NCBI RefSeq assembly: GCF_016937535.1
Contig: NZ_JAFHKK010000024.1
Coordinates: forward strand, 1-39,115
Direction of reading: 5' to 3'
DNA length: 39,115 bases
Source of the DNA: Sulfurospirillum tamanense
GTDB lineage: Bacteria; Campylobacterota; Campylobacteria; Campylobacterales; Campylobacteraceae
Position 1 is the first letter of the stretch. Every line of letters starts with the position of its first letter. This document shows, one piece after another, positions 35,608 to 39,115 of this stretch. The notes beneath the pieces were generated by a model. That model did no database searches and had not been told where the DNA came from. It saw nothing but the letters and a program-made list of their open reading frames with translations. The position numbers and the translations under genes were made by a program.

Positions 35608-35802
35608 TTAGGCTAAAATCTTTTTCACGCGTCCTACTGCGCCACCAACCAACCGCACTTTGATGCCATGAGGGTGTGTGGGGGAGTTGGTTAAGAGGCT
35701 TTGCACCACGCCTTCGGTGAGTGTTCCTGTGCGCTGGTGTTCTTTGAGCACAATCGCGACGCGGAGTCCTGCGCGGATTTCGCTCCTGCGGGTTCCTTCC
35801 AT
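35608..35802 (-). CDS. ywbE: YwbE family protein (DUF2196)
   Basis: 64 residues, AAAAGGA before the ATG. The family signature is clear: RSEIRAGLRVAIVLKEHQRT, GTLTEGVVQSLLTNSP, THPHGIKVRLVGGAVGRVKKI. These small beta-rich proteins are widespread; function unknown. It ends 9 bp before the Nudix gene, so co-transcription is likely. Its leader contains a long hairpin. Confidence 0.93.
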   Translation of the reverse strand: MEGTRRSEIRAGLRVAIVLKEHQRTGTLTEGVVQSLLTNSPTHPHGIKVRLVGGAVGRVKKILA

Positions 35803-35816
35803 GCTTTTTTCCTTTT

Positions 35817-35856
35817 AGACTTCTTGCATAACCTTTGAGGGTCATGAAAGAAGTCT
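35817..35856. repeat. Long imperfect hairpin in the ywbE leader
   Basis: AGACTTCTT (35817-35825) pairs perfectly with AAGAAGTCT (35848-35856); after one mismatch the pairing continues inward (35827-35829 with 35844-35846, 35831-35834 with 35839-35842), leaving a 4-nt loop. On the minus strand it ends just before the ywbE RBS. On the plus strand it is followed by ATTTTT, so it could also act as a terminator in that direction. Confidence 0.6.
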
Positions 35857-35879
35857 ATTTTTGGTAAGATTATACCATG

Positions 35880-36013
35880 ACGGTCCTCCAATAGCTCTGT
35901 GAGCGGATTTTTGAGGCCACAAAGCACTCAGGAAGAGTACTGGCCGAAAACCCTCGGAGATTTGCCAAGGATGGCAAATCGAGAATGAGCGAATAGGGCT
36001 ATTGGAAGACCGT
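35880..36013 (+). ncRNA. Putative structured RNA or leader upstream of the amr operon
   Basis: A 134-nt element with no ORF. 35880-35898 and 35995-36013 form a 19-bp closing stem with one C-A mismatch and one G-U pair. Inside are two hairpins: A (35915-35919 with 35941-35945, then ACTC/GAGT at 35926-35929 / 35935-35938, loop AGGAA) and B (GATTTGCC 35959-35966 with GGCAAATC 35973-35980, loop AAGGAT). An extended -10 (TGGTAAGAT, 35862-35870) would place transcription start at about 35877-35880, the foot of the stem. No T-run follows, so it may be the leader of amrA, 17 bp downstream. It does not match 6S, SRP, RNase P or tmRNA core motifs that I know. A MITE-like insertion is an alternative. 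Confidence 0.5.
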
Positions 36014-36030
36014 TACCCATGGAGGTTCCC

Positions 36031-36573
36031 ATGCACGCTGCTCTTCTTTCCATTGCCCACCATGCCATCGAGGAGGTTTTTGACCCCGCTTGCGCTTTGG
36101 ACACAAAAGCGTTAAAGGAACAATTTCCCGAACTTTTAACACCACGAGCGACGTTTGTGACACTCACCCTTAATGGAGAACTTCGAGGCTGTATTGGCAC
36201 ACTCGAAGCGAACCATCCTTTGTTGGATGACCTTATCGCCAACGCCAAAGCGGCGGCTTTTGAAGACCCGCGGTTTTACCCGTTGAGCCTTGCGGAGTTT
36301 GAAAAAACTGTCCTTGAAATCTCCCTACTCACCCCACCTGAAAAACTTTTTTATCACGGCATCGCCGACCTTAAAGCCCAAGTCGTCCCAGGGGAAGATG
36401 GCATCATCTTGCAACTTGGCCGCCACCGTGCAACCTTTTTGCCTCAAGTATGGGAACAATTACCTAGCTTTGCACAATTTTTTAGCCATTTGTGCCACAA
36501 AGCTGGCTTGGAAACTGACTGCCTCGCCTCTGGTCCTGACATCTACCGCTACCGTGTAGAGAAAATCCGATGA
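36031..36573 (+). CDS. amrA: AmmeMemoRadiSam system protein A (AMMECR1 domain)
   Basis: 180 residues from the ATG at 36031, chosen over the in-frame ATG at 36019 because GGAGG lies 5 bp before it. AMMECR1 fold: ATFVTLTLNGELRGCIGTLE with the near-invariant LRGCIG, then ANAKAAAFEDPRFYPL, FEKTVLEISLLTPPE, VVPGEDGIILQLGRHRATFL and FAQFFSHLCHKAGL. It is part of a conserved bacterial and archaeal triad (AMMECR1, Memo, radical SAM) whose biochemical product is not settled to my knowledge. Its stop overlaps the radical SAM gene by 4 bp. Confidence 0.92.
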   Translation: MHAALLSIAHHAIEEVFDPACALDTKALKEQFPELLTPRATFVTLTLNGELRGCIGTLEANHPLLDDLIANAKAAAFEDPRFYPLSLAEFEKTVLEISLLTPPEKLFYHGIADLKAQVVPGEDGIILQLGRHRATFLPQVWEQLPSFAQFFSHLCHKAGLETDCLASGPDIYRYRVEKIR

Positions 36574-38363: not shown

Positions 38364-38393
38364 TTTATTTATCGGCGCTTGTGTCGGTTCTAG
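38364..38393 (-). repeat. Decayed terminal CRISPR repeat
   Basis: Only the last 18 bp (38376-38393, CGCTTGTGTCGGTTCTAG) match the repeat; the other 12 bp have mostly diverged. A 36-bp spacer-length gap separates it from the next repeat, so it is in phase with the array and marks its leader-distal end. Confidence 0.85.
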
Positions 38394-38429
38394 CTAAGCC
38401 GTCGCGTGGTATCTGCCATAAACCGCAGA

Positions 38430-39115
38430 ATTTCAATACAACGCTTGTGTCGTCTAGACGAAAACCCAGAACTTTTACATGTAAAGGAGTAAGATTTCAA
38501 TACAACGCTTGTGTCGGTTCTAGCTATCACAAGGGATTTTAAAGACGACTTCTTCCAATTTCAATACAACGCTTGTGTCGGTTCTAGAATCTAACTTTTT
38601 AGAGTTTGAAACTTTTTCAAAATATTTCAATACAACGCTTGTGTCGGTTCTAGATTACCAATAGAATTTATATAAGAAGTAATAAGAGTATTTCAATACA
38701 ACGCTTGTGTCGGTTCTAGTTTACAAAAGAAAAAACCAACAACGTCCACACCACTATTTCAATACAACGCTTGTGTCGGTTCTAGGCACAAACATTCAAG
38801 AGTCACAGCATAAAATCGGCAATTTCAATACAACGCTTGTGTCGGTTCTAGTTTTGACGGGAAAAGTGAAGCTCCCCTTTGCAAAGTTATTTCAATACAA
38901 CGCTTGTGTCGGTTCTAGTGGGAGCATGGGGAGGCATGTTTGATTGGTTTGGATTTCAATACAACGCTTGTGTCGGTTCTAGACCTTTTTGCAAAAGCAA
39001 CCAAAGATGGGAGTATTTGATTTCAATACAACGCTTGTGTCGGTTCTAGGTCTTATTAAACAAATTCGTAAACTACCTTTTCAAAATTTCAATACAACGC
39101 TTGTGTCGGTTCTAG
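38430..39115 (-). CRISPR. CRISPR array, leader-distal end (continues past the window)
   Basis: The repeat is 30 bp (ATTTCAATACAACG plus CTTGTGTCGGTTCTAG). Ten identical copies start at 38494, 38558, 38624, 38690, 38756, 38822, 38889, 38953, 39020 and 39086; the copy at 38430-38457 has lost 2 bp (GT) near its end. Spacers are 34-37 bp, all different. The reverse complement of the repeat ends in ATTGAAAT, the typical crRNA 5' handle of type I-A/I-B and type III systems, so transcription is probably leftward with the leader beyond the right edge. The decayed left repeats agree with this. No cas gene is in the window; the last repeat ends at the final base. Confidence 0.97.
38474..38485. repeat. 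Iterated palindrome copy inside a CRISPR spacer
   Basis: Perfect TTTACATGTAAA within the oldest well-defined spacer (38458-38493), in the context CTTTTACATGTAAAGGAGT. The flanking bases match no other copy in this window over the whole spacer. Confidence 0.9.

Follow-up and report, generated by a model that had tools for sequence, protein, structure and literature searches.

The window, the whole 39,115-nucleotide stretch of DNA that was analysed, contains at positions 35880-36013 a strongly folding, non-coding element directly upstream of a gene whose product we take, from its sequence, to be an AMMECR1-type protein (Table 1). The true start of this gene is likely ATG 36031, for which GGAGG at 36021-36025 could serve as the Shine-Dalgarno sequence, so the element would form part of the AMMECR1 gene 5' leader if transcription begins upstream. 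Folding of positions 35870-36020 on the plus strand yields -63.5 kcal/mol, compared with -36.5 +/- 3.7 in shuffled sequences (z -7.3), and the minus strand gives z -6.9. The closing stem spans 23 positions, comprising 19 Watson-Crick pairs, 3 G.U pairs and 1 A.C; a first-pass annotation of this DNA had described 19 base pairs with a single wobble, and the pair count stands while the wobbles number three. Its GGA inventory, with one triplet in each loop and three more in the element, is exact, the five triplets beginning at 35905, 35931, 35956, 35969 and 36004 (two in loops, three elsewhere). The upper stem of hairpin 2 includes 1 C.A mismatch, at a position that is paired in the orthologous copy L009, and the GC of the 3' junction strand pairs with the GC of the 5' GAGCGG and is flanked on the outer side by tandem G-A mismatches. 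A promoter and terminator consensus scan at this copy found neither, and a search of Rfam gave no match at gathering scores and only chance-level matches up to E 10. Immediately 5' of the element, a second, independent hairpin at 35816-35857 (18-bp arms, 89% complementary) falls within the leader of the gene at 35608-35802, which is encoded on the minus strand.

Table 1. Parts of the element and the gene that follows it (window coordinates).
Feature	Position	Strand	Description
Outer stem, 5' arm	35880..35900	+	Sequence unique to this copy and its orthologue; the arms of other copies differ, each pairing with its own partner
Conserved core	35901..35992	+	Three-way junction with two hairpins
Hairpin 2	35915..35945	+	Lower stem GGCC/GGCC, 5' bulge ACAAA, upper stem, loop AGGAA (35930-35934) containing GGA
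Hairpin 3	35953..35983	+	Base CUC/GAG and G-C, GGA bulge (35956-35958), stem AUUUGCC/GGCAAAU
Hairpin 3 loop AAGGAU	35967-35972	+	Closed by C-G; CAAGGAUG fits CANGGANG
3' junction strand AATGAGCGA	35984..35992	+	Near-invariant across phyla
Outer stem, 3' arm	35993..36013	+	
First downstream gene, AMMECR1-type protein	36019..36573	+	

Two other repeated features were recorded in the window. The 10-bp palindrome TTACATGTAA, often found as CTTTACATGTAAAG, occurs 22 times in these 39 kb against an expectation of 0.05 (for example at 706, 2998, 15956, 15970, 35189 and 37414). Its density is 47-72 per 100 kb in sampled DNA of the source genome (G000) and of a congeneric sister species (G001), and 0 in sampled DNA of G039, from another family of Campylobacterales, or of Nitrospirota. 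It resembles a DNA-uptake sequence or a highly iterated palindrome (HIP1-like) specific to the genus, and the open-licence literature yielded no paper describing it in bacteria like these. Positions 38381-39115 hold a CRISPR-like array, in which 10-mers of the repeat containing TTTCAATACAACGCTTGTGTCGGTTCTA recur 11-12 times.

The element at 35880-36013 is one of a dispersed set. DNA similarity and a covariance model both recover 8 copies in the source genome, and ~14 copies are found in G001 and 23 in G039, although carriers within Campylobacterales amount to only 8 of 120 genomes. Beyond this order, a 21-base gapped pattern drawn from hairpin 3 and the junction matched 55 of 396 Nitrospirota genomes, with up to 32 copies each (32 in G092); the reversed control pattern gave 0 matches in this screen, and a few of the genomes matched only once are probably fortuitous hits. 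The phylum to which a Desulfocapsa genome belongs had 8 matching genomes of 395, with up to 48 copies (48 in G959). The pattern also recovered the element in records titled Latescibacterota, Gemmatimonadota and Melainabacteria. By record titles, then, six phyla carry it (Campylobacterota, Nitrospirota, Latescibacterota, Gemmatimonadota, Desulfobacterota and that of a Melainabacterium), and it spans at least five. One carrier record is titled Nitrospinota (L103, in G078); RpoB places this genome inside the Nitrospirota clade, and the title is probably a misclassification. Collections of plasmids, phages and viral contigs were searched for the element with no match, and carriage by such vehicles was rejected on that basis. 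Searches of the open-licence literature, by core sequence or by CsrA together with repeats, turned up no account of such a family, though one may exist elsewhere. The locus is best described as one member of a family of short, non-coding DNA inserts, dispersed and apparently new to the literature, and its standing as a dispersed RNA element is close to certain.

All copies share a core in which a three-way junction, AGCGG / CUCGGAG / GAGAAUGAGC, is mounted on a stem of ~20 bp. The 5' side of the junction reads (T/A)GAGCGG, hairpin 2 varies in sequence, and hairpin 3 is opened by CCUCGGAG and closed by CGAGAAUGAGCGAA. That CUCGGAG and CGAGAAUGAGCGAA never vary among the collection-derived copies follows in part from the search pattern, which required both, but the copies of G000, G001 and G039, which were found by similarity, conserve them equally. 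Several copies of family f10 replace the junction pairs and their flanking G-A mismatches with Watson-Crick ACC/GGU. Each copy has an outer stem (median 21 bp) of its own sequence, yet the pairing is kept: between copies of one genome, identity is 0.30-0.66 in the 5' arm versus 0.58-0.92 in hairpins 2 and 3, and pairing reaches 0.75-0.98 with a copy's own arm versus 0.39-0.80 when arms are swapped among copies of the same genome. Across 56 sequences, 92.8% of cells are paired, compared with 62.9% in shuffled and at most 44% in slid controls, and both sides have changed in 406 cells versus 132 after shuffling. The orthologous pair L004/L046 shows the same on a small scale, with 2 stem pairs changed on both sides and 0 broken.

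The mismatches in the stem bear on which strand folds. Read on the plus strand, they comprise 191 G.U and 68 A.C; roughly equal numbers would be expected without single-strand folding, since a G.U on one strand is an A.C on the other. The excess of G.U fits a plus strand that folds while single-stranded, as RNA or as single-stranded DNA. The first-pass annotation had proposed an unassigned structured RNA at this locus, and the covariation and the G.U bias of one strand support it. Two reduced copies were also seen: L008 (G000; orthologue L041 in G001) lacks hairpin 2, and L046 (G001; orthologue L004 in G000) lacks most of the 5' half of the core, with the outer stem still paired in both.

The source genome encodes CsrA, and the hairpin loops can be compared with the known preferences of this regulator. 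The sequences that C. jejuni CsrA selects follow mAwGGAs and lie mostly in loops (PMC6692469), and hexaloops with CANGGANG serve as CsrA sites of high affinity (PMC4894983). Outside a clade of Nitrospirota that lacks CsrA, an apical GGA occupies hairpin 3 in 79 of 82 copies and the exact CANGGANG motif in 53 of 82; inside the clade, both counts are 0 of 48. A CAGGA-type site is present in hairpin 2 in 58 of the 82 copies outside the clade, and the median GGA-GGA spacing in these copies is 39 nt. Of 56 sequences, 50 retain the C-G pair that closes hairpin 3, whereas the pairs below it vary, the commonest type accounting for only 20-31 of 56. Judged from sequence, the loops carry a CsrA signature, given the conservation of the hairpin 3 GGA, of CANGGANG and of the closing C-G in line with what C. 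jejuni CsrA prefers, and CsrA is likely to bind the element RNA.

Loop type also follows the presence of csrA across genomes. The link was first seen in CsrA-less carriers, whose loops are devoid of GGA, and the presence of csrA was then predicted beforehand from the loops. A first round was right for 17 of 21 genomes: all 10 predicted to be CsrA-less were confirmed, as were 7 of the 11 predicted to have CsrA, and the four misses are GGA genomes with no detected CsrA gene, possibly incomplete MAGs. Two further genomes for which no prediction had been made also fit. A second round was right in 16 of 16 cases, and pooled counts give CsrA in 32 of 37 GGA genomes versus 0 of 24 non-GGA genomes. 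All sampled non-GGA genomes fall into one clade of the RpoB tree (support 88/92), within Nitrospirota, so the tie between loop and CsrA represents one evolutionary event rather than 24, and a Fisher test on these counts treats as independent genomes that form a single phylogenetic contrast. A third prediction, that G574 would be CsrA-less on account of its decayed hairpin 3 loops, proved wrong: this genome has a CsrA gene, and the four copies examined retain GGA in hairpin 2. G088 and G677 have CsrA, yet both carry a GGA-less subfamily with ACGA loops. The putative CsrA-type loops of the first-pass annotation thus gain comparative support across copies and genomes, with G574 and the ACGA subfamily of G088 and G677 as exceptions. 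The core is kept in CsrA-less genomes as well, which indicates that CsrA binding is not the sole constraint on it.

Gain and loss of the element can be followed between the two sister species. For four copies of G001 (L038, L043, L044 and L045), the orthologous sites in G000 are empty and contain neither the core nor either arm. The unit gained or lost must therefore include the stem, and a stem copied from the insertion site was rejected as an origin of the arms. The four sites would be compatible with either insertion or deletion of the whole unit; no target duplication is recognisable at them, where the flanks have diverged. The inverted repeats at both ends of the element are the outer stem arms themselves, and these, together with presence or absence at a site and with multiple dispersed, short, non-coding copies, are traits of a MITE. 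The murG-murC region holds a copy in four Nitrospirota genomes (L108, L118, L129 and L156), so some copies may keep one site over long times. Where copies lie between tandem genes, with genes called by a simple longest-ORF rule, those of the GGA group are balanced in orientation (21 sense versus 17 antisense), whereas those of the non-GGA group are largely antisense (5 sense versus 29 antisense). One reading is that sense copies would be harmful in transcripts unless CsrA occupies them. In G039, the plus strand of the element lies mostly on the strand of negative GC skew (~15 of 20 copies), which amounts to a weak bias towards one replication strand.

We consider it marginally probable that the element is a MITE-like dispersed insert whose transcripts carry an RNA module able to capture CsrA. 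The unit would be a non-autonomous element of about 130-150 bp, dispersed by transposition. Its plus strand, transcribed within whatever transcript hosts the insert, would fold into a three-way junction and two hairpins on a long stem whose sequence is specific to the copy. Where the host has CsrA, the two apical loops, ~39 nt apart, would each offer a site of CsrA type, either A-N-GGA with a closing C-G pair or a shorter AGGA, and each transcribed copy could capture one CsrA dimer. At a given insertion, such capture may change how stable the host transcript is or how well it is translated (at this locus, the leader of the AMMECR1/radical SAM/Memo operon). Taken together, the copies may titrate CsrA in a lineage with no known CsrB-like RNA. 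The support consists of dispersal, gain and loss as a unit, a conserved fold, the single-strand bias, the conservation of the loops and the tie between loop and CsrA in one clade contrast. The mostly antisense elements of CsrA-less genomes (29 versus 5) speak against a general role in sense transcripts there; the negative promoter and terminator scan at 35880-36013 also counts against this reading, and no transposase linked to the element was found.

A plain MITE or REP-like DNA repeat is a rather unlikely alternative. The fold would then be what a transposase recognises when it acts on single-stranded DNA in folded form, in the style of REP/RAYT or IS200/IS605, the GGA loops would be recognition features of the enzyme or a matter of lineage history, and CsrA would be irrelevant. 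Dispersal, patchiness among Campylobacterales, empty sites and unrelated insertion contexts suit a selfish insert, and around the copies no shared neighbouring gene, protein family or cognate protein was found; the neighbours of the source-genome copies are presumably mostly metabolic or housekeeping genes with no common theme. The plus-strand bias also fits folded single-stranded DNA, and the preference for one replication strand in G039 points the same way. The Y1 transposase domain, however, is absent from 6 of the 17 genomes searched for it, and the Y1 genes that do occur have no copy of the element nearby; a REP/RAYT origin was rejected because these 17 genomes show no linkage to a Y1 (TnpA_REP) transposase. 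The lack of a recognisable target duplication at the four empty sites may also count against a plain repeat, which moreover leaves unexplained why CANGGANG is kept in loops while stems turn over completely, and why it is lost in the CsrA-less clade. The first-pass annotation had held that many dispersed copies would indicate a MITE and overturn its RNA reading. Copies are indeed many and dispersed, yet they keep RNA structure and loop motif, which an ordinary MITE need not keep.

It is improbable that each copy is a stand-alone small RNA gene, a CsrB/RsmZ-like sponge multiplied by duplication. In favour, the core of the 35880-36013 copy has two loop GGAs and two further GGAs, and no CsrB-like RNA is known in C. 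jejuni (PMC4894983). Many copies, however, sit only 5-20 bp from both neighbours within tandem gene pairs, often antisense, with no room for signals of their own, and neither promoter nor terminator was found at the copy studied here; two loop GGAs per copy are few, and the core persists where CsrA is missing. A riboswitch or attenuator leader specific to the AmmeMemoRadiSam operon, as the first-pass annotation had also offered, agrees with the position of this copy and of its G001 orthologue L009 directly upstream of the AMMECR1 gene, but is very improbable, and the dispersed copies refute it as an account of the family at large, since L009 alone shares this place, the other seven copies of the source genome lie between other, unrelated genes, and relatives occur in many contexts and orientations; a local effect on the amr operon is possible.

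On the reading of a dispersed insert with a CsrA-capturing module, a broader proposition can be put forward more tentatively, as possible rather than probable: that these are multi-phylum mobile RNA elements whose CsrA docking sites are tuned to the host, being kept where CsrA is present and lost where it is absent. If so, in lineages that lack CsrB-like RNAs, the copies would constitute a distributed CsrA sponge, and host genes would be rewired insertion by insertion. It would be a dispersed insertion family in which the RNA is the conserved part, across several phyla, and its members would be possible RNA antagonists of CsrA in lineages with no known CsrB-type RNA (Campylobacterota and Nitrospirota). 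A mobile element would thereby be tied to a global regulator in a way that can be tested directly, and the CsrA-less clade offers a natural experiment in loop evolution.

Several known systems share part of this anatomy. ERIC and Correia (NEMIS) MITEs are likewise short, intergenic, non-coding and dispersed, with a long imperfect inverted repeat and a stable fold when transcribed, and they can alter the stability of host transcripts (PMC10969869); the text of that review makes no mention of CsrA. Unlike them, the element described here has a covarying three-way junction and conserved loop motifs on an outer stem that varies by copy, and it spans several phyla; no parent insertion sequence was found, and no target duplication is recognisable at the four empty sites. 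REP/RAYT systems resemble it in being extragenic palindromic repeats in which the folding of one strand matters, but REPs measure 20-40 bp and most bear GTAG or CGTC tags (PMC3733652), and our element shows no RAYT linkage in the 17 genomes searched. The copies also do not show the conserved association with genes of one pathway that would mark a riboswitch. With CsrB/CsrC and RsmX/Y/Z, the element shares apical GGA hairpins closed by C-G and several GGAs per molecule; it differs in having no Rfam match to known families, and in consisting of dispersed inserts with no promoter or terminator of their own detected, with two loop sites per copy and with a core that outlasts CsrA. The 5' leader of C. 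jejuni flaA, an mRNA that titrates CsrA, similarly presents two neighbouring hexaloop GGA sites in a bacterium with CsrA and FliW (PMC4894983). In flaA, these sites are spaced 21 nt apart and belong to one gene (PMC4894983), whereas in the element they are ~39 nt apart and recur, as a repeat, beside many genes.
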